From assembly GCA_002727735.1 (NCBI GenBank), contig PBXW01000148.1:1-10425 (forward strand): a stretch of DNA of 10,425 nt, given 5' to 3'. The notes under the pieces are model-generated. The model worked only from the letters and a program-made list of their open reading frames with translations, ran no database searches and was not told where the DNA came from. This DNA is from Crocinitomicaceae bacterium (GTDB lineage: Bacteria > Bacteroidota > Bacteroidia > Flavobacteriales_D > Parvicellaceae). Each line of letters begins with the position of its first letter. Position 1 is the first letter of the stretch. Below, piece by piece: positions 1 to 10,425 of this stretch. The translations under genes and the position numbers were made by a program.

Positions 1-16
1 ACTTTATAAATATTTT

Positions 17-38
17 GTGGGACAATTAGTGGGACAAT
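17..38 (+). repeat. Tandem GTGGGACAAT direct repeats, candidate integrase arm-type sites
   Basis: Two perfect copies of GTGGGACAAT start at 17 and 29, a 12-base period. They lie about 60 bases before the tRNA-end-like repeat at 95-114. A similar but diverged pair (TTTGGGACTA and TTTGGGATTA) precedes the matching repeat at the right end of the window, in the same orientation. Short G-rich direct repeats near an attachment core are what tyrosine recombinases use as arm-binding sites. The repeats are seen directly; the function is inferred. Confidence 0.45.
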
Positions 39-94
39 ATTAATGGCCCTCTATTTTATTGATTCAAATCAATCGCTTAGAGATCACTTTGGCT

Positions 95-120
95 GACCCC
101 CCATCCGCCATATCTATAAA
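95..120 (+). repeat. Left att-like direct repeat resembling a tRNA 3' end
   Basis: The 16-base string CCCCATCCGCCATATC (99-114) recurs at 10403-10418. With one mismatch the match runs to 120, giving 21 of 22 bases. It ends in GCCA, like a tRNA acceptor end with discriminator G followed by CCA. This copy has two extra C residues before the acceptor-like part (six in a row instead of four), and no T-loop, anticodon arm or 5' half precedes it. It is therefore a fragment and not a working tRNA gene. It is best read as a recombined attachment site marking the left edge of the module. Confidence 0.6.
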
Positions 121-309
121 TTCCTTACCTTTTTTAAATTTAAAATTTTTATAAATTATATAATGATTACAGGTATTTATAACTTATACTTAATTAAATT
201 CTCTATTGCTACCAGATACAACCTACGGAAAATTGTGGTACAGATATTGAGAATTAAAAATTAATTAACTTATTTAAGTTTAAAAAAAATGACTCAATAT
301 GATTTTGTA
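121..309. other. Non-coding AT-rich stretch downstream of iolE
   Basis: I see no gene in this stretch. It lies between the left att-like repeat and the stop codon of iolE. The only structure found is a weak AT-only inverted repeat, AACTTA-TT-TAAGTT, at 267-280. Read on the minus strand it follows iolE, but it has no GC stem and only a short T run after it, so it is a poor terminator candidate. Confidence 0.5.
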
Positions 310-1209
310 TTAGATTATTATCTTAAAATCATTATATTCCAAGCAGGATACTAATGTGTTATAACCTTTTCTTGCATACTCAAATGGATTTGCTTTAAGA
401 GGATCTTGTTCTGCTTCAACAACAATCCAACCACTATACTTTATATCTTTAAGTCTTTTAATAAATTTTCGGTAGTTAATGCAACCGTCTCCTGGAACTG
501 TAAATATACCATTCAACACACAATCTAAAAAACTATCCTTAGTTTTATCCACTTTTTTTAAAATATTCTCTCTAATATCTTTTGCATGAACATGATTTAT
601 TCTATTTCCAAAGGCAGAAATAATTTTCTCATAATCACCGTTGGCGAATAGAAGATGCCCTGTGTCTAAAAGAAGACCAACAGATTCTCTAGTATTATCC
701 ATTAACTGCTCAATCTCATTTTGCGTCTCAACGACTGTACCCATATGATGATGGAAACTCAAAGGCACACCTTTATCCAAGCAGTAATCGGCTAAATTAC
801 TTAAGTCTTGTCCATATTGCTTAATATCAAATTCTGATAATCTTGGTCTCGAATTTAAAGGTTTGTCTTTATTATTTTGAACTGTATTGTAAGTTTCTCC
901 ATAAACTAAAACACTTGCACCAACTTTCACAAATAGTTTCAACATTTTATCTAACTTTATTTTTTCGTCATTTAACTTATTTTTAAGCAATGTTCCAGAA
1001 TACCAACCGGAAATAAGTTTTAATTCGTGCGCTTCTAAAACTTTTTTAAGGCTATTAGGATTGTTTGGAAATTTTCCGCCTAACTCAGTTCCTGAAAACC
1101 CAGCTAAGCGTGTTTCTTTTAAGCATGTTTCTAAGCTAGTATCACCTCCTAGTTCAGGTAAATCATCATTAGTCCATGAAATTGGTGACATACCCAATTT
1201 TACCTCCAT
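310..1209 (-). CDS. iolE: Inosose dehydratase (2-keto-myo-inositol dehydratase)
   Basis: This cytoplasmic lyase of the xylose-isomerase-like TIM-barrel superfamily removes water from 2-keto-myo-inositol, the second step of inositol breakdown, to give the diketone that IolD cleaves. The 299 residues match the usual family length. The N-terminus GMSPISWTNDDLPELGGDT (6-24) and TELGGKFP (41-48) are hallmark IolE sequences. The metal-site strands are present: SFHHHMGT (151-158), LDTGHLLFANGD (181-192), NHVHAKD (205-211) and VVEAEQDP (263-270). The ATG at 1209 gives the usual family N-terminus. However, a strong GGAGG lies inside its first codons, five bases before an in-frame TTG at 1197, so the true start may be four codons later. 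The gene lies 49 bases after iolD and is the last gene of the minus-strand operon. Confidence 0.93.
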   Translation of the reverse strand: MEVKLGMSPISWTNDDLPELGGDTSLETCLKETRLAGFSGTELGGKFPNNPNSLKKVLEAHELKLISGWYSGTLLKNKLNDEKIKLDKMLKLFVKVGASVLVYGETYNTVQNNKDKPLNSRPRLSEFDIKQYGQDLSNLADYCLDKGVPLSFHHHMGTVVETQNEIEQLMDNTRESVGLLLDTGHLLFANGDYEKIISAFGNRINHVHAKDIRENILKKVDKTKDSFLDCVLNGIFTVPGDGCINYRKFIKRLKDIKYSGWIVVEAEQDPLKANPFEYARKGYNTLVSCLEYNDFKIII

Positions 1210-1258
1210 CTAAGACACGCCTTTTCTTTTGAAAATTTATCGATTAACTTTCCGATCA

Positions 1259-3109
1259 TCATTTAAATCCTTTGTTTTGATTTATTCTAGCAACTAAATA
1301 GTCCTTTCTAAGATTTGACTTATTACTATCCGTAAAAGTTTCTGGAATGGCAACATCCCACCAAGCACCTCCTTCTACAGTACTAATATTTGGATCTGTA
1401 TCAATAACTATAACCTTAACCCCCTTTTTTCTAATTGTGTTTTTTACCTCAACTTCGAGTTCAGCTATTTCAGACACATAGACAGCTTTAGCTCCCATAG
1501 ATTTGGCGTGAGAAACGAAATCAATCTCTATCTGCTTATCAAATTTAGAGTCAGAAAACAGATTATTAAACTCTGCTCCCCCTGTTGCCTTTTGCAAACG
1601 ATTGATACAACCATACCCTTTATTGTTTGTAAGAATAAGGGTCATTGAAATTCCCATCATAGCAGCTGTAGCTAGTTCAGAATTCATCATTAGGTAAGAT
1701 CCGTCACCTGAAAAAACGACATTAGGTCTATTAGGTGTAGCGAGATTTACTCCAATACCAGCTGAGATTTCATATCCCATGCAAGAATAGCCATACTCCA
1801 TATGATATGTATTTTGATCTAAAACTTTCCACAGTTTGTGCAGTTCTCCTGGCATTGAGCCTGCTGCCCCAATAACGATTGTGTTTTCAGGAACACTTCG
1901 GTTTACAGCACCAATTACTTGACTGTCGGAAGGCAAACTATTCATCAAACTGGGAGCTGTTATTTTCTCTAAGTCTTTTAACCATTTTTCTTTAGCTGCG
2001 GTATACTTTGAGATATAGCCTGAACTGACCTTATAATTTGTGCTTAGCGCCTTTAGTAATTGCAATGAAACTTTAGCATCGCCTAATATAGGTTTTGATT
2101 GGTGTTTTGTTAGATCATGTGCTTGTACATTAATAGAGTATACCGGGGCTTTTATTAATCCGTTAGAGCCAGTTGTAAAATCTTGCAATCGACTACCAAC
2201 TGAAATAATAAAATCAGCGTCCGAAATAATTGCATTGGCTGAACTAGAACCTGTCACACCTATAGATCCAAGATTCTGTTCATCTTTTTCCACCAGTACC
2301 GATTTTCCTGCTTGAGTTACCACTAATGGCACTTTAGTAATATCTAAAAATTCCTTTAATTCATCTTGAGCATTACTATATTTCACGCCTCCACCAGCAA
2401 TTAAAACAGGTTTTTTTGACTTTTCTAGAGCACTAGCCAACCTTTCGATTTCTCTTCGGTCAGGTTGAATTCTCCTTACATTCCAATAAGAGGGTTCAAA
2501 AAAAGACACGGGGTAATTATAAGCTTCAGCTTGAACATCTTGACAAAATGCTAGCGTTACGGGTCCGGTCATGGCAGGATCAGTAAGGATTGACATAGCT
2601 TTTGGCAAGGCGTTAAGTAACTGTTCAGGTCTAGTTATACGATCAAAATATCTACTGACTGGTCTGAAGCAATCATTTGCTGATACAGTCCCATCTTCAA
2701 AATCTTCAATCTGTTGCAGTACTGGGTCAGGCCGTCTGTCAGCAAACACATCACCTGGTAGTAAAAGAATTGGTAGTCTATTAACGTGAGCCAATGCAGC
2801 TGCCGTCACTAAATTCGTTGCACCAGGACCGATAGAGGATGTGACTGCCATAAACCTTCTTCTTTGCATTTCTTTTGTGTATGCCAATGCAGCATGTGCC
2901 ATACCTTGTTCGTTATGTCCTCTATATGTTGGAAGAACTGTTTTATACTTTTCTAAAGCCTCACCTATGCCGGCAACATTACCGTGTCCAAATATACCCC
3001 ACACTCCCTTAAAAGCCATTTCATACGATCCATCAAATTGTTCAATCTTTTGTGCAATGATCCACTTCACTAGGGCTTGCGCAGATGTTAATCTAACTGT
3101 TTTCATCAT
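1259..3109 (-). CDS. iolD: 3D-(3,5/4)-trihydroxycyclohexane-1,2-dione acylhydrolase
   Basis: This ThDP-dependent enzyme hydrolytically opens the six-membered ring of the IolE product to give 5-deoxy-D-glucuronate. The 616 residues follow the acetolactate-synthase fold. The N-terminal PYR domain has the cofactor-activating glutamate in YRGHNEQGMAHAA (E67), followed by SSIGPGATNLVTAAA (91-105). The middle domain contains LIAGGGVKYS (236-245). The C-terminal PP domain has the ThDP/Mg motif from GDGS (468-471) to NN (495-496). The tail GGAWWDVAIPE (580-590) is typical of IolD and separates it from acetolactate synthase. The first ATG is preceded by GAGG eight bases upstream; a second ATG follows immediately. 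The gene lies 129 bases downstream of the ATPase gene, with a TATAAT box in the gap, so it may have its own promoter besides operon read-through. Confidence 0.95.
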   Translation of the reverse strand: MMKTVRLTSAQALVKWIIAQKIEQFDGSYEMAFKGVWGIFGHGNVAGIGEALEKYKTVLPTYRGHNEQGMAHAALAYTKEMQRRRFMAVTSSIGPGATNLVTAAALAHVNRLPILLLPGDVFADRRPDPVLQQIEDFEDGTVSANDCFRPVSRYFDRITRPEQLLNALPKAMSILTDPAMTGPVTLAFCQDVQAEAYNYPVSFFEPSYWNVRRIQPDRREIERLASALEKSKKPVLIAGGGVKYSNAQDELKEFLDITKVPLVVTQAGKSVLVEKDEQNLGSIGVTGSSSANAIISDADFIISVGSRLQDFTTGSNGLIKAPVYSINVQAHDLTKHQSKPILGDAKVSLQLLKALSTNYKVSSGYISKYTAAKEKWLKDLEKITAPSLMNSLPSDSQVIGAVNRSVPENTIVIGAAGSMPGELHKLWKVLDQNTYHMEYGYSCMGYEISAGIGVNLATPNRPNVVFSGDGSYLMMNSELATAAMMGISMTLILTNNKGYGCINRLQKATGGAEFNNLFSDSKFDKQIEIDFVSHAKSMGAKAVYVSEIAELEVEVKNTIRKKGVKVIVIDTDPNISTVEGGAWWDVAIPETFTDSNKSNLRKDYLVARINQNKGFK

Positions 3110-3138
3110 TTATTGTTCCTCTTGTATAACTTTATTAA

Positions 3139-3180
3139 CTGTGGAATTATAAAAATGTCATTCTTTGTTATTAATTATTA
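3139..3180 (-). promoter_or_regulatory. Candidate internal promoter for iolD-iolE
   Basis: Reading the minus strand, a perfect TATAAT lies at 3151-3146. The hexamer 17 bases upstream is only a poor -35 (TTAATA). A start near 3139 would leave a leader of about 30 bases with the iolD ribosome binding site in it. In DNA this AT-rich a TATAAT can occur by chance, so this is a modest call. It is supported by the unusually long gap (129 bases) within an otherwise tight gene string. Confidence 0.3.
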
Positions 3181-3238
3181 ATTTAAATCCCAAACCGTTT
3201 TCTAAAAAATCGTTCAAAACTTAATTTTTTCCATTGGA

Positions 3239-4009
3239 TCAATTGTATCTTTCTGAGAACTCTGTTTCAAGTTTATCTAAATCTTCACCACCCGCCATTA
3301 GAGGTCTGAGATTATTTATATCAATTTCATCTCTCGATCCCTCAGCTAAAACTTTTCCTCTATTAAGAAAAGCAAACCGATCTCCCAAAAGTTTAGCATG
3401 CATATCGTTATGAGTTATGAATATGATCGCTATGTCTCCTAAATCTTTAACTTTTTTTATAGTTCTTAAAACTTCTAACTGCTGCTTTTGTCCGAGGGCT
3501 GAAGTGGGCTCATCAAGAATGAGTACATTGGCACCAAAATAAATAGCTCTAGCTATCGCAAGTGTCTGTCTTTGTCCACCAGACATTGTGCCTATAGGTT
3601 GTGTTGGGTCCGCAACATCAATACCCAGTTTAGCCATTTCCTTTCGTGTAATATCATTCATTAGAGACATATCTAAAAAAATACCTTTTGTAATTTCTCT
3701 GCCTAGAAAAAAGTTTCTAGTTACACTCATTAAAGATTGCAAGGCCAAGTCTTGATAGACGGTACCAATTCCAGCAGTAACAGCTTGTCTAGGTGACTTA
3801 AAATTTACCACCTTGCCATTCAATAGTATTTCACCCTCACTAGGTATATGGACTCCGGATAATAGTTTTATAAGTGTTGACTTTCCAGCACCATTGTCTC
3901 CTAAAAGAGCCGTTATTTCACCCTTGAAAACTTTAAAAGAAATGTCCTTTAGAGCTATTATGTTTCCAAAAAATTTTGATACACCTTTAAACTCAATTGA
4001 TGGGGTCAT
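3239..4009 (-). CDS. Sugar ABC transporter ATP-binding protein (carbohydrate uptake CUT2 type)
   Basis: This is the ATPase that powers uptake of the polyol or sugar bound by the partner periplasmic protein. All nucleotide-binding motifs are present in 256 residues: Walker A GDNGAGKST (37-45), Q-loop Gln86, signature SGGQRQ (143-148), Walker B VLILDEP (162-168) and switch His200. It has a single ATPase domain, like fructose transporter FrcA of rhizobia, whereas RbsA, XylG and the Caulobacter inositol transporter ATPase are fused double-domain proteins. It would therefore act as a homodimer. The start lies seven bases after the permease stop codon, which points to translational coupling. The substrate cannot be read from the ATPase itself; neighbouring iolD and iolE suggest an inositol-like compound. 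Confidence 0.9.
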   Translation of the reverse strand: MTPSIEFKGVSKFFGNIIALKDISFKVFKGEITALLGDNGAGKSTLIKLLSGVHIPSEGEILLNGKVVNFKSPRQAVTAGIGTVYQDLALQSLMSVTRNFFLGREITKGIFLDMSLMNDITRKEMAKLGIDVADPTQPIGTMSGGQRQTLAIARAIYFGANVLILDEPTSALGQKQQLEVLRTIKKVKDLGDIAIIFITHNDMHAKLLGDRFAFLNRGKVLAEGSRDEIDINNLRPLMAGGEDLDKLETEFSERYN

Positions 4010-4016
4010 ATATCCA

Positions 4017-5075
4017 TTATCCTTTCACTATCCTATCTCTTAAAAATTGGTTTAAGAGAGCAGATCCCAATATAAGCATCCCTAACATTACTCTAAAAAG
4101 ATTATTATCGATGAAAGGTACAAAATTTATTCCTCTGCTCGCAATTGCAAAAATTAATGCCCCAAGAACAGCTCCAACTACAGAACCGTATCCCCCAGTT
4201 AAAGCACAACCGCCAATAACAGCTGCTGCAATTGCATGTAACTCCCTAAAATCTCCAGCTTTTGGATCTGATGCACCAGAGGTCATAACTGTTAAAATAC
4301 CTAACAAGCAAGCCAGAGAAGTTGATATCATAAAAAGACTAATTTTTACCCTTGCCACTGGAACTCCTACAGCTCTTGCGGCCACAGGATCTCCTCCAGA
4401 TGCATATATCCAATTTCCATATGGCGTTCGGGTGGTGATGAAAGCAACTAAAAAAACAAGAATAATAAAATAATAAACTTCAGCATCAAAAGGCACTCCA
4501 AAAGCCCTATCGAATGCAAAAATGTTATCAATCAGTGTAGGGTCCTCTCCACCTCCTGGGGGAGGTTTAAGATTTGCCTTAACAGATAATCTAGATTGAT
4601 TGAAAAAAGTCTGACTAAGAAACACTGCAAACCCTCTACTAGCGAACCAAAAAGCTAGAGTTACAATGAAACTAGGAAGTCCAGTTCTGACAACAATTAT
4701 TCCAATGATAAATCCTAAAAAGGCGAGTTCCAAAAAGGTTAATATAATCGCCAACTCTACTGGCACTCCAAATAAAAGAAAAATAGCAAAACTATGTCCA
4801 GCCAAAGCGATATTAGCTCCCATACTAAGATCAAATTCTCCTGCTATCATTAGAAGAGAGGCTCCAATAGCTAAAATGCCAACAAATGCTGCAAGTTCTA
4901 CCCATGCCTGGATACCTATTGGATTTAACCACATAGCTTCAAATGTACCGCTTATCGAGGTAAGTGTCATAAAAGTGATAACGATTATTATTAGTCCAAA
5001 AACAGATCCCAGCTCAGGTCTAGATATAGATCTTCTGATTAATCCAATTTCTCGTATGCGTTCATCAGTTGCCAT
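4017..5075 (-). CDS. Sugar ABC transporter permease (RbsC/FrcC family)
   Basis: This inner-membrane channel subunit has 352 residues and many hydrophobic segments (for example 24-41, 61-78, 87-103, 107-129, 201-215, 246-266, 282-312 and 328-345). The family motif GEFDLSMG (79-86) corresponds to the GxxDLSVG signature of ribose-type permeases. The cytoplasmic coupling region includes AARAVGVPVARVKI (232-245), and the glycine-rich GGCALTGGYGSVVGAVLGAL (288-307) is also typical. A long polar, proline- and glycine-rich loop (about 160-185, with PPPGGGED) probably faces the periplasm. AGGTGG lies just upstream of the ATG. The gene sits between the binding-protein gene, from which a strong hairpin separates it, and the ATPase gene. 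Substrate assignment to inositol is inferred from context only. Confidence 0.9.
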   Translation of the reverse strand: MATDERIREIGLIRRSISRPELGSVFGLIIIVITFMTLTSISGTFEAMWLNPIGIQAWVELAAFVGILAIGASLLMIAGEFDLSMGANIALAGHSFAIFLLFGVPVELAIILTFLELAFLGFIIGIIVVRTGLPSFIVTLAFWFASRGFAVFLSQTFFNQSRLSVKANLKPPPGGGEDPTLIDNIFAFDRAFGVPFDAEVYYFIILVFLVAFITTRTPYGNWIYASGGDPVAARAVGVPVARVKISLFMISTSLACLLGILTVMTSGASDPKAGDFRELHAIAAAVIGGCALTGGYGSVVGAVLGALIFAIASRGINFVPFIDNNLFRVMLGMLILGSALLNQFLRDRIVKG

Positions 5076-5090
5076 TTGTCCACCTAAGAT

Positions 5091-5123
5091 GAATCTGGCA
5101 AATCAAAAGGATTTGCCAGATTC
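5091..5123 (-). promoter_or_regulatory. Perfect intercistronic hairpin between binding-protein and permease genes
   Basis: GAATCTGGCAAATC (5091-5104) and GATTTGCCAGATTC (5110-5123) form a perfect 14-base-pair stem with a five-base loop. It lies wholly within the 73-base gap between the two cistrons. In the transcribed direction it is not followed by a T run, so it is unlikely to be a strong intrinsic terminator. Hairpins here are known in other binding-protein operons (malE-malF type), where they block 3' exonuclease decay and keep the binding protein more abundant than the membrane parts. That role is inferred here. Confidence 0.75.
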
Positions 5124-5148
5124 TATACTAAAGGAAAAAGATTATTGC

Positions 5149-6075
5149 TTATCTTTCTTTCCCAGCTAGTTTCTTTACTAATTCAACATTGCCCTTAGTA
5201 ACAAAACCTGGGCCTGAGTTAATTGAATTACCTGGAAGAGTACCATTTCTGTGATTTAGGTGAAGTACCATAACTGGCACATAACCTTGAAGAAATTGTT
5301 GCTGGTCTATAGCGTAGTTAACTGTTCCGTCAATTATGCCATCAACAATTGCTGGTCCAAGGTCAAAACAACCTAACACAACTTTTCCAGCTTTACCCAT
5401 TTCTTTTAGAGCGGCTATAGTTGGGTCACAACCTGTTGGACCAACTGCCATTATGGCACCTGTGTTTGGATTAGATGTCATATGTGCAATGACAGTATTT
5501 TTAATATCATCAAAATCAGTTGAAACCTCAACCATATTGAGCTTCTCACCCATGCCATCAGCAAATCCCTGACACCTGTCCTTCAGCGCAGTATTCATTG
5601 GCTCATGGTTAAAGCAAACCGAGTTCTTTCCACCTAAACCTTTGCTTTTTTCACCACCACCTAGACCAGCTTCATATTCGGGTTGCCCAACATGCATTAC
5701 AGCACCTAAACTTTTTGAAACGCCAGCACCAGAATTCATAGATATGACTGGAATCCCAGCTGCAACAGCTGCTTTAATTGGTCCACCCAAAATGTCAGGT
5801 GCTGGTATTGATACAACTATACCATCTGGCTTTTGTGCAATAGCAGCTTCAATTAAAGATGCCATTTCGTTTAAATCTCCGGTTGGTGGATTTCTATATT
5901 GAACATCTGCGCCAGTGTCTTTTTTAGCAGCTTCAACGCCATTTCTTACAACACCCCAAAAAGCATCTGTGTCAGAGCCATGAGTTACAACGATAATATT
6001 AGCTTTATGATCTCCAGCAAAAGAAAAACTGGTAGATAACAAAAAAGCTATTAACGTAGTTAGTATTTTTTTCAT
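5149..6075 (-). CDS. Periplasmic sugar/inositol-binding protein of ABC transporter
   Basis: This is the solute-binding lipid-free periplasmic receptor of the ABC importer. Its 308 residues begin with a clear signal peptide: two lysines, a hydrophobic core and SFSFA-GD, with cleavage expected after residue 20. The mature protein has the type I ribose-binding fold (Peripla_BP_4): VTHGSDTDAFWGVVRNGVEA (30-49), KPDGIVVSIPAPD (82-94), AAGIPVISMNSG (105-116), DQQQFLQGY (257-265) and GPGFVTKGN (288-296). Four cysteines (154, 168, 216, 236) are present; 154 and 168 are placed for a disulfide. GGAGG lies seven bases before the ATG, a stronger site than those of the downstream genes. It is the first gene of the operon. 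An inositol-like ligand is inferred from iolD and iolE downstream. Confidence 0.9.
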   Translation of the reverse strand: MKKILTTLIAFLLSTSFSFAGDHKANIIVVTHGSDTDAFWGVVRNGVEAAKKDTGADVQYRNPPTGDLNEMASLIEAAIAQKPDGIVVSIPAPDILGGPIKAAVAAGIPVISMNSGAGVSKSLGAVMHVGQPEYEAGLGGGEKSKGLGGKNSVCFNHEPMNTALKDRCQGFADGMGEKLNMVEVSTDFDDIKNTVIAHMTSNPNTGAIMAVGPTGCDPTIAALKEMGKAGKVVLGCFDLGPAIVDGIIDGTVNYAIDQQQFLQGYVPVMVLHLNHRNGTLPGNSINSGPGFVTKGNVELVKKLAGKER

Positions 6076-6288
6076 AAATTTTCCTCCACTTTAAAATTAT
6101 TTAGTAATATTAACATAGTAGAATCAGTCTCTTTCAAAGTAAAATAATTTATTGCGTAAAGAAGATATTAAAAGTTATCTTGATAATATACATATAAAAA
6201 TTAGATAAAATTAGAATGGCAACTTGCTACTTCCTTAGTTTTTTATAAAATTTGTATTAATAGTACTCATTTTGTTTAGGAGATATTT
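6076..6288. promoter_or_regulatory. Divergent control region between transporter operon and dehydrogenase gene
   Basis: These 213 bases separate the minus-strand transport/iol operon from the plus-strand dehydrogenase and must hold both promoters. For the minus strand, TTGAAA (6137-6132) and TTAATA (6113-6108) are 18 bases apart. For the plus strand, TTGCTA (6224-6229) and TAAAAT (6246-6251) are 16 apart. Overlapping inverted repeats lie between them: AAGATA/TATCTT (6162-6181) and TTATC-TT-GATAA (6175-6186). The strong Shine-Dalgarno sites GGAGG (6087-6083) and AGGAGA (6278-6283) lie at the two edges. I found no match to the GGAA-N6-TTCC motif reported for Caulobacter IolR. No regulator gene is in the window. 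Confidence 0.5.
6162..6186. promoter_or_regulatory. Candidate operator: overlapping inverted repeats
   Basis: AAGATA and TATCTT pair across eight bases (6162-6181). The palindrome TTATC-TT-GATAA (6175-6186) overlaps it. The site lies centrally in the divergent promoter region, where one repressor could control both directions. The sequence is very AT-rich, so chance palindromes are likely; this is a weak call. Confidence 0.3.
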
Positions 6289-7413
6289 ATGAAAGGTATT
6301 GGGGTAGGAGTTATTGGTACAGGGTTTATGGGTAAAGCTCACTCAGTTGCCTATAGTGCTTCCGCTTCAGTTTTTGGTACAGGGTTAAGACCAAAACTGG
6401 AGATAGTTTGTGATTTAAGCCCCAAGAGAGCTAGTCAAAGAGCAAAAGACCTTGGATTTTCAAGGTATACTAGCAACTGGTTAGAGGTAGTAAACGACCC
6501 AAAAGTAGATCTAGTTTCTGTTTGTACACCAAATGATACCCACGCTGAAATTGCAATTTCAGCTTTAAAGTTAGGAAAAAGTGTTTGGTGTGAGAAACCT
6601 ATGTCAAGTAGCCTGCTAGATAGTAAGAAAATGCTTTCGGCGTCAAAAAAAAGTAGAGGCAAAACCATAATTGGTTACAATTACACAAAAAATCCATCAG
6701 TATTACATGCAAGAGAGTTAATAGAAAGTGGTACAATCGGTGACATCGTGGGTTTTTTTTGTCGTTACGATGTCGATAATGAGGCGGATAAAAAAAGACC
6801 GTGGTCTTGGCGTATGTCACGAGATGCCTCTGGTACAGGGGCAAATGGGGATATATTAAGTCATGTTATCAGCGTAGCGCACTTTTTAGTTGGATCAACT
6901 ATCTCAAAAGTTGTAGGAGATATAAACATTGTTCATCCCAAAAGGAAAGATCCAGCTAATAAAAAAGAAACTAAGATTGTAGATAACGACGATATGATCG
7001 CAGCTCTTATTCATTTTAAAAATGGAGTCCATGGGCATATAGGCGCCAGTAGAGTTACTTGGGGTAAAAAATGTGGGCTTACATGGGAAGTACACGGAAC
7101 ACTTGGTACAATAACCTTCGATCAGGAAAGACTAAACGAGATCAAATTATTTACACGACAAAAAAAGAAAAGTACAGACGGGTTCAGAACTATTTTAACA
7201 GGTCCTGATCATCCTTTTTACAAATCATTTCTACCTAATGGAGGTCACAGTTTAGGATTTATGGATGTAAAAATGTGTGAATTACAGATGCTTTTGTTCG
7301 CAATAGAGCACGATACAGAGGCTTGGCCCAATTTTGAATCTGGATATGATATAGAAAAAGTAATGAACGCTGTAGATAGATCAGCGCTAAGTGGAAAGTG
7401 GATAAAAATCTAG
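6289..7413 (+). CDS. Gfo/Idh/MocA oxidoreductase, levoglucosan-dehydrogenase-like
   Basis: This is an NAD(P)-dependent oxidoreductase, probably oxidising a ring hydroxyl of a sugar, anhydrosugar or cyclitol to a ketone. Its 374 residues begin with a Rossmann fold (GVIGTGFMGKAHS, 7-19). The family lysine is in CEKPM (K103), and the catalytic Asp and His are in GDILSHVISVAHFL (D188, H192). The C-terminal half resembles bacterial levoglucosan dehydrogenase as I remember it, notably GFRTILTGPDHPF (298-310), WEVHGTLGTITFD (266-278) and the GYDIEKVMNAV tail (352-362). It is clearly not a copy of the IolG in the same window. AGGAGA lies five bases before the ATG. It is the only plus-strand gene, divergent from the transporter operon, so it is probably co-regulated with it. 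The family call is firm; the substrate is not known. Confidence 0.85.
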   Translation: MKGIGVGVIGTGFMGKAHSVAYSASASVFGTGLRPKLEIVCDLSPKRASQRAKDLGFSRYTSNWLEVVNDPKVDLVSVCTPNDTHAEIAISALKLGKSVWCEKPMSSSLLDSKKMLSASKKSRGKTIIGYNYTKNPSVLHARELIESGTIGDIVGFFCRYDVDNEADKKRPWSWRMSRDASGTGANGDILSHVISVAHFLVGSTISKVVGDINIVHPKRKDPANKKETKIVDNDDMIAALIHFKNGVHGHIGASRVTWGKKCGLTWEVHGTLGTITFDQERLNEIKLFTRQKKKSTDGFRTILTGPDHPFYKSFLPNGGHSLGFMDVKMCELQMLLFAIEHDTEAWPNFESGYDIEKVMNAVDRSALSGKWIKI

Positions 7414-7422
7414 TTACAATTA

Positions 7423-8418
7423 TTAACTTAAATAAATAGTCCTACCTGTTCTGGCAGATTTAAGGGCATTTTCGGCTAAGTACAGTGCATAATGACCATC
7501 TTGAACATCAGGTTTAGGCATTGACTTTTTTTTTATGCATTCAATAAAATAGTCTATTTGATTCTTGTACGCATCTGCATATCGCGTCATAAAAAAAGTA
7601 TGTAACCTTTCCTTGGTTGCTCCTGACTCGTTTGCAAGTTCAATCTCTGTAAGAGGTGGGTTGTTAACTTTCAAGATTCCTTTTGATCCATGAACCTCAA
7701 CTCTTTGATCATAACCATAAGTCGTCCGTCGCGAGTTAATTATTGAAATTTGCTTTCCTGAAACAGTTTTCATTAAAATATTGGCAGTGTCGTAATCACC
7801 TGCTTGTTCTATTTTTTTACTTACTAAATTTGACCCTAAAGCGCTGATAGAATGTATTTTCTCACCTACTAAGAATACAGCCATATCGAAATCGTGAATT
7901 GCCATATCTTTAAAAATGCCACCGGATTGTGTTATATATTCAATAGTTGGGGGTGATGGATCTCTTGATGTTATGATAATTTGCTCAATAATTCCAATTT
8001 CTTTTTGGATTAAATGTAATTTTAATTTAGCGAAATGTGGATCAAATCTCCTATTAAAACCCACCATTACTTGAGATTTGGTATCTCTTACCAATTGAAC
8101 AATATTTTCAACTTTTTTTAGATTTAAATCTAGCGGTTTTTCACAAAACACAGCTTTTTTGGTATGAAGAAATTTTTTAATTAGATCAATATGTGTTTCG
8201 GTAGGAGTGCAGATAAGAAGTCCTTTAATTTGATCATCACTAGCAATATCATCAATAGACATTACTTGACATAAATATTTTTTTTTAAGGTTGTTAATTT
8301 CGTTATTCTTTGGGTCATTAATAGAAACAAGCTCAGAATTTGGATTGGTAATTATTGTATCGGCATGTAACCTTCCGATTCTACCAAGTCCCAAAATTGC
8401 AAATTTTATTTTTTTCAT
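7423..8418 (-). CDS. iolG: Inositol 2-dehydrogenase
   Basis: This enzyme oxidises myo-inositol (or a stereoisomer) to 2-keto-myo-inositol with NAD+, the step that feeds IolE. From the ATG at 8418 the protein has 331 residues, the usual length. It shows FAILGLGRIGRLHA (6-19) for NAD binding, CEKPLDL with K94, GFNRRFDPHF (120-129), SRDPSPP (151-157), the catalytic pair D171 and H175 in KDMAIHDFDMA, and VEVHGSKG (240-247). All fit IolG better than other Gfo/Idh/MocA members. An in-frame TTG at 8457 would add 13 residues overlapping the upstream oxygenase gene; I prefer the ATG, which begins right at the family N-terminus, although its ribosome site is weak. It starts 16 bases after the oxygenase stop codon, so the two form an operon. 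A scyllo-inositol or related substrate cannot be excluded. Confidence 0.88.
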   Translation of the reverse strand: MKKIKFAILGLGRIGRLHADTIITNPNSELVSINDPKNNEINNLKKKYLCQVMSIDDIASDDQIKGLLICTPTETHIDLIKKFLHTKKAVFCEKPLDLNLKKVENIVQLVRDTKSQVMVGFNRRFDPHFAKLKLHLIQKEIGIIEQIIITSRDPSPPTIEYITQSGGIFKDMAIHDFDMAVFLVGEKIHSISALGSNLVSKKIEQAGDYDTANILMKTVSGKQISIINSRRTTYGYDQRVEVHGSKGILKVNNPPLTEIELANESGATKERLHTFFMTRYADAYKNQIDYFIECIKKKSMPKPDVQDGHYALYLAENALKSARTGRTIYLS

Positions 8419-8434
8419 ATAATCAAAATACTTT

Positions 8435-9619
8435 TCACGAAAATTGTCTAATATCAAGTAATTTTAACTCTTCCAATACCAAAGTTGGTTCCTTCTTGGC
8501 CTTTAATGACTCAATTATTATCATAGCTTGGTTTTTAGGTGCCTTTCCTTCTACCGGTGGATTTAGGTCTAAATTGGTTGGAAATGAATAACCTTCCGAA
8601 CTTGCACCAACAACATTTTCAATTAAACGGAAAGGCATTTTGTTTTTCAACACTAATTCTAACAGGTGAGGATAAAGTTTCTCAGTCATTTTTTTCCTAT
8701 TAACTGTTTCCATAGCTCTGCCAAATGCTGAAGATATTTGCAGTAGGTTAACCATTCTCTTTACAGATCTGGTTCTATTATTTCCTGCTCCATGCATCAC
8801 AGCAGGATTAAAAAAAATAGCATCCCCCTTATTCATTTCAATCTGAATAGAATTTTCATTAAAGTATTTTTGAAATTTCTCTTTGGTGAAATCAATATAG
8901 CCATTTTTATATTGTTGGGAGTATGGTAGAAAGAGAGTTGGACCACTATCAATAGTTATGTCGCAGTGCGCAATTGCGCCCTGAAGTGTTAGGAATTGAG
9001 AAATTGTATGTACATTTGGAGGAAAATTAGCAGATTGTTCTGTTGACATAAACCCTAAGTGGTAATCTCTGTGAGGTTTTTGAGCTTCACCACCGGGGTT
9101 CACACTATTTACTTGTGCGGTAATTTGATAATTGGGGCCAAGCCAAGATTGTGCAGCTAAAGCTATGATCTCTGAACAGTAGTAATCTATAAAGTTTTGT
9201 GGGTCTTCCATACAGTGCTTTTGAAGAGAATTCCATATTCTATCATTAGCTCCTGGTTTAGCAAAATGATCACCTGAATTTCCATTTATTTTTTCAGATT
9301 TTATTATCGCTTCAAATATTTTTGTTGCAGTTTCAATCACGGAAGAACTTTTAATAGCATTTGTAATAGCTATTATTCCTGCACCACTTTTGAAAACATT
9401 AGACCATTCAGTTAGTAATTTTTGTTTTTTTTCGGATGAATTTGCATAATCTCTAACTAGCTGACCAGAATAAATTGGAATATTTTTTTTTATTTCTAAA
9501 GCAGTGGGTACATCATCTTGATTTGTTTTTCTCTTTAGTAGTTTTTCAAATGTTTTAAAATCCTCATGCCGTTCATTGAAAGGATTTTTTTTTTCTAAAT
9601 TGGTTTTACCATCTTTCAT
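8435..9619 (-). CDS. Phytanoyl-CoA dioxygenase (PhyH) family Fe(II)/2-oxoglutarate oxygenase
   Basis: This is a cytoplasmic non-haem iron oxygenase that would hydroxylate or demethylate a small molecule while turning 2-oxoglutarate into succinate and CO2. In 394 residues the iron ligands are visible: His183 and Asp185 in KPHRDYHLGF, and distal His276 in NPAVMHGAGNNR. R282 or R284 could bind 2-oxoglutarate. Other conserved stretches are DHFAKPGANDRIW (117-129) and LTLQGAIAHCDITIDSGPT (210-228). The protein is longer than human PhyH, with an extended charged N-terminus (1-45). GGAG lies eight bases before the ATG. A 10-base A run falls in codons 8-12. It is transcribed ahead of iolG with a 16-base gap, so its substrate is probably linked to inositol metabolism. 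No substrate can be named from sequence. Confidence 0.85.
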   Translation of the reverse strand: MKDGKTNLEKKNPFNERHEDFKTFEKLLKRKTNQDDVPTALEIKKNIPIYSGQLVRDYANSSEKKQKLLTEWSNVFKSGAGIIAITNAIKSSSVIETATKIFEAIIKSEKINGNSGDHFAKPGANDRIWNSLQKHCMEDPQNFIDYYCSEIIALAAQSWLGPNYQITAQVNSVNPGGEAQKPHRDYHLGFMSTEQSANFPPNVHTISQFLTLQGAIAHCDITIDSGPTLFLPYSQQYKNGYIDFTKEKFQKYFNENSIQIEMNKGDAIFFNPAVMHGAGNNRTRSVKRMVNLLQISSAFGRAMETVNRKKMTEKLYPHLLELVLKNKMPFRLIENVVGASSEGYSFPTNLDLNPPVEGKAPKNQAMIIIESLKAKKEPTLVLEELKLLDIRQFS

Positions 9620-9636
9620 GGATTAATCTCCAAGTA

Positions 9637-9672
9637 TTAAATTTATTTAAATATTAATCTTTTTTATGTAAA
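9637..9672 (-). promoter_or_regulatory. Candidate promoter for the oxygenase-iolG operon
   Basis: On the minus strand TTTACA (9672-9667) and TAAATA (9649-9644) are separated by 17 bases. A start near 9637 would leave a leader of about 18 bases carrying the GGAG ribosome site (9631-9628). The string GTTTAC occurs twice on this strand (9673-9668 and 9696-9691), overlapping and upstream of the -35, and might be a regulator half-site. High AT content makes chance matches likely. Confidence 0.4.
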
Positions 9673-10236
9673 CGAGAACAAAATTATTAAGTAAACATCT
9701 AAATAAACTTTTTTGAAAACATAATCAATTTTTATTCTTGAAGGTAATTCAGATAAGGAAACAGAAAAATATTAATAAATACTTAAACCATAGTATCATG
9801 GATTATGAAATGAAGTCGCTCTTTAGAGATTATTTTGTACATGAAGACATTAATAGAGAAGATTTATATCTTTTGAGTAAGAAAATGGATAAAGTATGTA
9901 ACATGGAATAAGACCAATTATGAAAGCATTAAAAGTGTCTTATGAAGAAATATTAAATCAAAAAGATGAAGCTACTTTTTCTTTGCCTAGGGATAAAAGT
10001 TAGGGAGAAATTCATAGAAATTTCTGAAGTTTTTGTGATATGCAAAATGAAATATAATAAAAATTTTATTAAAGTGATTTGTAGATAAATTGTAGACTGA
10101 AAACCTGTTAGACCGTAAGATATAAGTAAATCATATGATAAAAAAAGATTTGGGATGCCATTAATTTTATATTCACCAACTATATCGCATTTTTCAATAC
10201 TCTTGGTTTTGTTATCTAGTATCATCAAAACCCTCA
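9673..10236. other. Gene-poor, decayed stretch upstream of the oxygenase operon
   Basis: I see no convincing intact gene here. Two short plus-strand frames (9798-9911, 37 residues, and 9920-10027, 35 residues) follow each other closely in different frames. Neither has a ribosome binding site or a recognisable product. The minus-strand frame at 9953-10237 is described separately. The density of short, broken frames next to an attachment-like site fits old mobile-element sequence that is decaying. Confidence 0.4.
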
Positions 10237-10237
10237 T
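9953..10237 (-). pseudogene. Possible remnant of a tyrosine-integrase N-terminus
   Basis: This is a 94-residue frame starting MRVLMILDNKTKSIEKC. Residues about 8-37 (KNTK-like start, then VGEYKINGIPNLFLS) resemble the arm-binding N-terminal domain of P4-type integrases, which often reads as a basic stretch followed by G-x-Y-x-D-G-x-x-G-L-Y-L. After that the sequence turns hydrophobic and AT-driven, and no catalytic R-H-R-Y residues follow, so any integrase would be truncated or frameshifted. Its position fits: it starts beside the TGGGA repeats and about 155 bases from the right att-like site. The similarity is weak and was judged by eye. Confidence 0.25.
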
Positions 10238-10257
10238 TTGGGACTATTTTGGGATTA
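10237..10257 (+). repeat. Tandem TTTGGGAYTA repeats, candidate integrase arm-type sites
   Basis: TTTGGGACTA (10237-10246) and TTTGGGATTA (10248-10257) are direct repeats with an 11-base period and one mismatch. They share the TGGGA core and orientation with the GTGGGACAAT pair at 17-38, and like that pair they precede a tRNA-end-like repeat. Role as recombinase arm sites is inferred. Confidence 0.4.
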
Positions 10258-10393
10258 CTTAACACTAAAATATGATAATATAATTTGCAATTAGATAATA
10301 CATTATGTTATAGAAATTATCTAAATTTATTTAATAAAAACAGTAATTTATTTTTATTTTGATATTAAAAAAATCTAATTAATATAATTTAGA
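10258..10393. other. Non-coding AT-rich spacer before the right att-like site
   Basis: This stretch holds no reading frame and no clear secondary structure. It separates the TGGGA repeats from the tRNA-end fragment. Confidence 0.5.
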
Positions 10394-10424
10394 CGATTCC
10401 GACCCCATCCGCCATATCAATAAA
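10394..10424 (+). repeat. Right att-like direct repeat: tRNA positions 56-76
   Basis: Bases 10394-10414 fit tRNA numbering exactly. CGATT fits the 3' part of the T-loop (56-60), CCGAC the 3' T-stem (61-65), CCCATCC the acceptor 3' strand (66-72), G the discriminator (73), then CCA (74-76). The T-stem 5' half and everything before it are missing; upstream DNA is AT-rich spacer. It is thus the displaced 3' end of a tRNA gene, as left by integration into a tRNA. The parent tRNA should begin GGATGGG and have a GTCGG T-stem 5' strand. Serine, aspartate or asparagine tRNAs carry discriminator G. Bases 10403-10424 match 99-120 at 21 of 22 positions. Confidence 0.65.
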
Positions 10425-10425
10425 A

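Follow-up and report, generated by a model that had tools for sequence, protein, structure and literature searches.

A probable integrase-less cargo element with mixed ends at tRNA-Ser(TGA), most likely from the SAR116 group

Among the systems closest to the locus described here are the tycheposons of Prochlorococcus, which use seven tRNAs. The locus lies in a DNA stretch of 10,425 nucleotides (contig PBXW01000148.1 of GenBank assembly GCA_002727735.1, the whole of which is called the window below), where positions 99–10418 very probably form a chimeric cargo element without an integrase, situated in a tandem array at the 3' end of tRNA-Ser(TGA); the host is most likely a SAR116 bacterium. Tycheposons of Prochlorococcus and Methylophilaceae have a tRNA border and a size of 4–200 kb (PMC10872708), and the cis-mobilizable elements (CIMEs) of Streptococcus, found in tandem accretions, are derived from conjugative or mobilizable elements (PMC7563491). 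The SAR116 group is described as ranking among the most abundant heterotrophs in the surface ocean, and metagenomic islands are mentioned for two of its genomospecies (PMC8547437); the phosphate islands of HIMB59 are without tRNA borders (PMC10734472). In the parts of the SAR116 literature covered by our search, neither a tRNA-Ser island hotspot nor a tRNA-borne island was met for this group.

The repeat pair and its tRNA

Exact copies of CCCCATCCGCCATATC were found at positions 99–114 and 10403–10418, and the extended copies (99–120 and 10403–10424) were equal at 21 of 22 bases. With up to three mismatches allowed, this sequence matched the window twice, against 0.04 matches expected from 200 shuffles, and all eight long genes of the window lay between the two copies. 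Counted by hand on the sequence, the right copy corresponded to tRNA positions 56–76 at 10394–10414, while the left copy was devoid of the T-arm. No whole tRNA was detected in the window by ARAGORN, so both copies are tRNA fragments. The original observation, that tRNA-end repeats bracket every gene of the window and that the right copy corresponds to tRNA positions 56–76, was confirmed in these respects. RNA families were considered for the window and rejected, with 0 matches at gathering thresholds.

A second contig of 10,465 bases (G001:C77) matched window positions 99–10417 with 99.62% identity over 10,319 bases, including 39 substitutions and no gaps. The match ended at the repeats, and the flanks differed on both sides, placing the same unit in two contexts. 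In C77, the left copy (99–114 of the window, forward strand) completed an intact tRNA-Ser(TGA) that starts with GGATGGG and ends with CCCATCCGCCA, the very gene that had been predicted from the window, and it is only in this related contig, not in the window, that the whole tRNA of the unit was visible. The right attachment core with its T-arm remnant (10394–10418, forward strand) was 92% identical over 25 bases to the same tRNA. The 11 bases that make up the right flank of the window (10415–10425, forward strand) were identical to the sequence 3' of the tRNA in G006 (11/11) and nearly so to that in G005 (10/11). The direct repeats agree with the 3' end of an actual tRNA gene, as expected of an integrative element using a tRNA 3' end. 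In the search of 58 family genomes, with at most five places scored in each, no relative had these genes at the same site in the absence of the repeats.

In the relative G050, the 71 bases downstream of the tRNA were those found after the right copy in C77 (71/71), and beyond them lay genes of the surrounding chromosome. One core was present in the 20 kb examined, which makes this a site with a single repeat copy. G050 represents an empty-site-like state. The expected empty site was recovered as to its single core and its flank, but the tRNA of G050 differed from that of C77 at 7 of 90 bases, and the empty and filled pair is not clean.

Mixed ends and the array at tRNA-Ser(TGA)

A complete integrase in the window was rejected; each end carried no more than the 5' stub of a tyrosine integrase, a different one on either side. 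These integrases, A and B, have common catalytic and central domains and only ~27% identity. In scans of viral contigs, the only relative was one integrase at 25% identity. Positions 1–98 (forward strand) belonged to a neighbouring type-A element, whose right end they form. The identity of 1–110 was 95.5% to the G013 right end and 74–86% to the eight other right ends compared, and paired arm-like motifs GTGGGACA lay at 17–24 and 29–36. This right end abuts the window unit, and the contig stops there; since 1–98 belong to another element, the unit lies in a tandem array. The type-A left end of the unit itself (115–297, forward strand) was 90.6% identical to that in G053, and 99–296 were 79% identical to G005. 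It held an integrase A stub at ~247–297 with an internal stop (tblastn, 229–330, 54% over 37 residues, E 6e-4); one arm motif was absent and the other was changed to GTGGTACA (235–242). G053 shared both this left end and the arm deletion and, by our reading, appears to keep a decayed iolE tail as well.

At the other side, window positions 10142–10418 had 92% identity to the type-B right end of G028, in which an intact integrase gene (424 residues) begins. The integrase B stub comprised about 28 codons (10142–10225, reverse strand; tblastn 90% over 30 residues, E 1e-12; DNA 92% to G028). Paired motifs TTTGGGAC and TTTGGGAT of the type-B right end, placed at 10237–10255 (forward strand) by alignment with G028, may serve as arm sites.

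What appears to be a third kind of end precedes this stub. The segment at 10079–10142 (forward strand) had counterparts in many family genomes, with identities of up to 86% and several copies in a row (best five places per genome scored). Twenty-seven copies were examined (the top of the match list plus seven from two loci); the arm pair was found in 26 of them and TCCGCCA, within one mismatch, in 14, all at offset 86 and 11 of them exact, compared with 1.4% (within one mismatch) and 0.02% (exact) of shuffled segments. In G006, three copies followed tRNA-Ser(GCT), which ends with CCCTCCGCCA, and one of the three had the exact core. The segment appears to be the right end of elements using tRNA-Ser(GCT), of which the window keeps a coreless relict. 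Arrays of such right ends with a spacing of 1–4 kb were also observed at two loci (G006:C25, L077; G061:C1, L078), the one in G006, located after tRNA-Ser(GCT), being another small-element array in SAR116. The window unit is best read as a chimera with ends from two, and probably three, element families. The small integrative cargo element first proposed is supported by the predicted tRNA, the empty-site-like relative and the SAR116 setting; the unit is, however, no standard island, given two integrase stubs in place of a complete gene and ends of mixed origin within a tandem array.

The same address was occupied in other genomes. tRNA-Ser(TGA) was located in 29 of the 58 family genomes. Within 1.5 kb after it, integrase A was complete in G005, G031 and G032, and in G007 at 54%; 5' pieces of 22–138 residues only were present in G006, G013, G044, G049 and G051 (the contig of the last ends 836 bases past the tRNA), and type-B-like motifs followed the tRNA in G012, G027 and G028. 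In G006 the tRNA was followed by a short type-A remnant and then by recQ, named by eye. Longer stretches were examined at 18 of the 29 loci, eight of which had a second core downstream on the same strand (up to one mismatch), 4.9–14.5 kb away; it was exact in G005 (14.5 kb), G012 (10.0 kb), G028 (6.9 kb) and G031 (9.7 kb). With four integrases as queries, a complete integrase was found in the units of G005, G028, G031 and G032 and a truncated one in that of G013, and no match was obtained in the units of G012, G014 and G018, so integrase-less units are not unique to the window. The cargo comprised a TRAP transporter and a CoA transferase in G012, an ABC transporter with a phosphonate-type binding protein in G014, and a type II methyltransferase with DpdF-like proteins in G005 (three of six proteins scanned). 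Four non-integrase proteins were scanned in the G028 unit, giving one helix-turn-helix domain match.

Two further observations concern these loci. On contig C17 of G007 (L053/L054), two cores of the same type enclose a separate unit of 7.66 kb (17096–24757), which runs in the other orientation on the contig and carries a split integrase as well as phosphate-transport and PhoU proteins. A 5.2 kb segment preceding a one-mismatch core was 96% identical between G018:C3 (L080) and G028:C19 (L067) and was largely present in G053 and G057 too (86%), with other ends adjoining; it is possibly another old cargo unit.

Inositol cargo and host lineage

The eight cargo genes were all on the reverse strand, with one exception. 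Three were assigned above NCBIfam cut-offs: iolE, encoding myo-inosose-2 dehydratase (310–1209; TIGR04379, 395 bits, cut-off 290), iolD, encoding trihydroxycyclohexane-1,2-dione acylhydrolase (1259–3109; TIGR04377, 828 bits, cut-off 715), and iolG, encoding inositol 2-dehydrogenase (7423–8424; TIGR04380, 377 bits, cut-off 355). Between iolD and iolG were genes for a sugar-type ABC transporter ATPase (3239–4009; PF00005, with sugar importers as best NCBIfam models, below cut-off), a permease (4017–5075; PF02653) and a substrate-binding protein near the rhizopine/inositol type (5149–6075; PF13407; NF052284, 295 bits, below the cut-off of 420), whose nearest solved chain was 4ru1 (143 bits). The forward-strand gene encoded a Gfo/Idh/MocA dehydrogenase (6289–7413), for which the nearest solved chain was the scyllo-inositol dehydrogenase 5ya8 (322 bits) and the top NCBIfam model levoglucosan dehydrogenase (325 bits, below the cut-off of 650). 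A PhyH-family dioxygenase (8435–9619; PF05721) completed the block; the 90% protein cluster containing it holds 98 sequences, given without genomic context. The cargo would import inositol, and its first steps would lead from IolG or the scyllo-inositol-type dehydrogenase through IolE to IolD, with later steps presumably supplied from elsewhere.

Relatives of the binding protein at 78–86% identity occurred in 8 of 136 genomes of the order, and ARAGORN found no tRNA in the 9–20 kb around each of these eight. The cluster was largely colinear in G117 and G121, the latter also having iolB and an iolC-type fusion, both absent from the window. A related binding protein at E ≤ 1e-60 was found in 28 genomes, none of them among the 58 family genomes, and in a DNA search of those 58 with the window (best five places per genome), only the ends and short gene fragments were matched. 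The G+C content was 36% in the cargo (310–9619), 22% in the unit ends and 28–29% in the SAR116 stretches of G005, G006 and G050.

When named genomes were scanned for this tRNA type, nine records were obtained. Three of them, from single-cell genomes labelled SAR116, were identical to the C77 tRNA (90/90 bases), and the remaining six differed from it. Because of this identity, the host of the inositol block is most likely an ocean bacterium of the SAR116 group, in agreement with the marine alphaproteobacterium that had been suggested. The lineage of G001 was rejected as host, its own tRNA-Ser(TGA), partial and at a contig edge on C20, being of another sequence (G003 type). G003, with a GGTGAGG-type tRNA, and G004, with degenerate copies, were without the CCCCATCCGCCA core in the stretches examined. 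On G004:C15 (L029/L030), six degenerate tRNA-Ser(TGA) copies, some near full-length, were seen near 3684, 5679, 7722, 10163, 18551 and 20414, about 2–8 kb apart with cargo genes between them; none was called as a tRNA by ARAGORN.

Origin, rival readings and known systems

Comparison of these loci suggests that elements are inserted at the end of tRNA-Ser(TGA) by at least two tyrosine integrase families (A and B), where recombination at a core of ~13–16 bases common to the tRNA end would leave a tRNA fragment at each junction. As both cores are kept and only stubs of integrases A and B are left, the window unit cannot move itself. Any movement would depend on the integrases of neighbouring or incoming elements acting on its cores or would occur together with a neighbour as one composite unit, and the most likely source of the mixed ends is recombination or deletion between elements in tandem. 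More tentatively, the module may have been re-addressed, having resided first in a tRNA-Ser(GCT) element before it was fused to the ends of two tRNA-Ser(TGA) families and became a passenger of any integrase that reads the core. If so, end-swapping in tandem arrays would allow nutrient-use genes to be moved from one chromosomal address to another in streamlined ocean bacteria.

Several points weigh against an integrase-less cargo element in a SAR116 array. C77 joins a tRNA identical to those of G005, G006 and G007 to a flank identical to that of G050 (10395–10465), thus two SAR116 lineages; given the seven differences in the tRNA of G050, C77 must be either recombinant or a chimeric assembly. 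Since the tRNA-Ser(TGA) on C20 of G001 is of another type, C77 was probably mis-binned and is probably not part of the G001 genome. The damaged motif in the type-A left end makes present mobility by integrase A doubtful, and the integrase of the left neighbour was not seen, the contig ending within that neighbour. Four of the eight second cores had one mismatch (G013, 4.9 kb; G014, 5.6 kb; G018, 5.3 kb; G032, 6.7 kb), and that of G018 adjoined no known end type. Among the tRNA-Ser(GCT)-type copies, 13 of 27 were without a core within one mismatch, one of these 13 also without the arm pair, and three (L142, L144 and L154) stopped at nearly the break point of the window and ran into a gene; this segment may have another role. 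Finally, iolB was found in 0 of the 58 family genomes, which are incomplete, with 3 of 14 control genomes positive; because of this incompleteness, the missing later step is a lead, not proof.

The strongest rival, a serious contender although short of an even chance, is that the block is a relic, once mobile and now fixed, whose surroundings change only through the arrival or loss of other elements at its flanks. It would account for the lack of a complete integrase and for the arm damage common to the window and G053, and neighbours alone could explain the differing flanks. However, near-identical units were found on two contigs with different flanks on both sides, and the cargo DNA was not seen among the 58 family genomes in the five best places scored for each. 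An autonomous tycheposon or genomic island with its integrase just beyond the window is improbable: type-A elements often carry integrase A and one such element ends at 1–98, but a core separates it from the window unit, and the complete type-A gene sits at the left end, where the unit has a stub. Chance or a contig artefact as the source of the repeat, suggested by copies near both contig ends, was rejected as next to impossible by the 0.04 matches expected and the second context in C77, and is further opposed by the differing flanks and the same layout in other genomes.

An integrase-less element in a tandem array agrees in part with each of the systems described. A single address whose cargo is exchangeable (inositol, phosphate, TRAP substrates, restriction genes), and at which some units are integrase-less, offers reduced genomes a testable path for exchanging genes. 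Like tycheposons (PMC10872708), the unit has a tRNA border, here tRNA-Ser(TGA), elements of the tyrosine recombinase family, nutrient-use cargo and, at 10.3 kb, a size within 4–200 kb. Unlike them, it has stubs in place of a recombinase of its own, and the likeness is one of layout and cargo. The additive flexible genomic island of Ca. Methylopumilus at tRNA-Lys likewise contains the terminal 20 bases of a single tRNA gene in repeated copies (PMC10872708), whereas two integrase families, their stubs and an empty-site-like relative were identified for the SAR116 array. As in CIMEs (PMC7563491), attachment sites are kept, recombination genes are lost except for stubs, and a unit with cargo genes lies in tandem with other elements at one site, although no conjugative or mobilizable parent was seen for the window unit (no search was aimed at relaxase or conjugation genes) and its ends come from different integrase families. 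On the best reading of these sequences, the window unit would work like a cis-mobilizable element and would resemble tycheposons, without a recombinase of its own.

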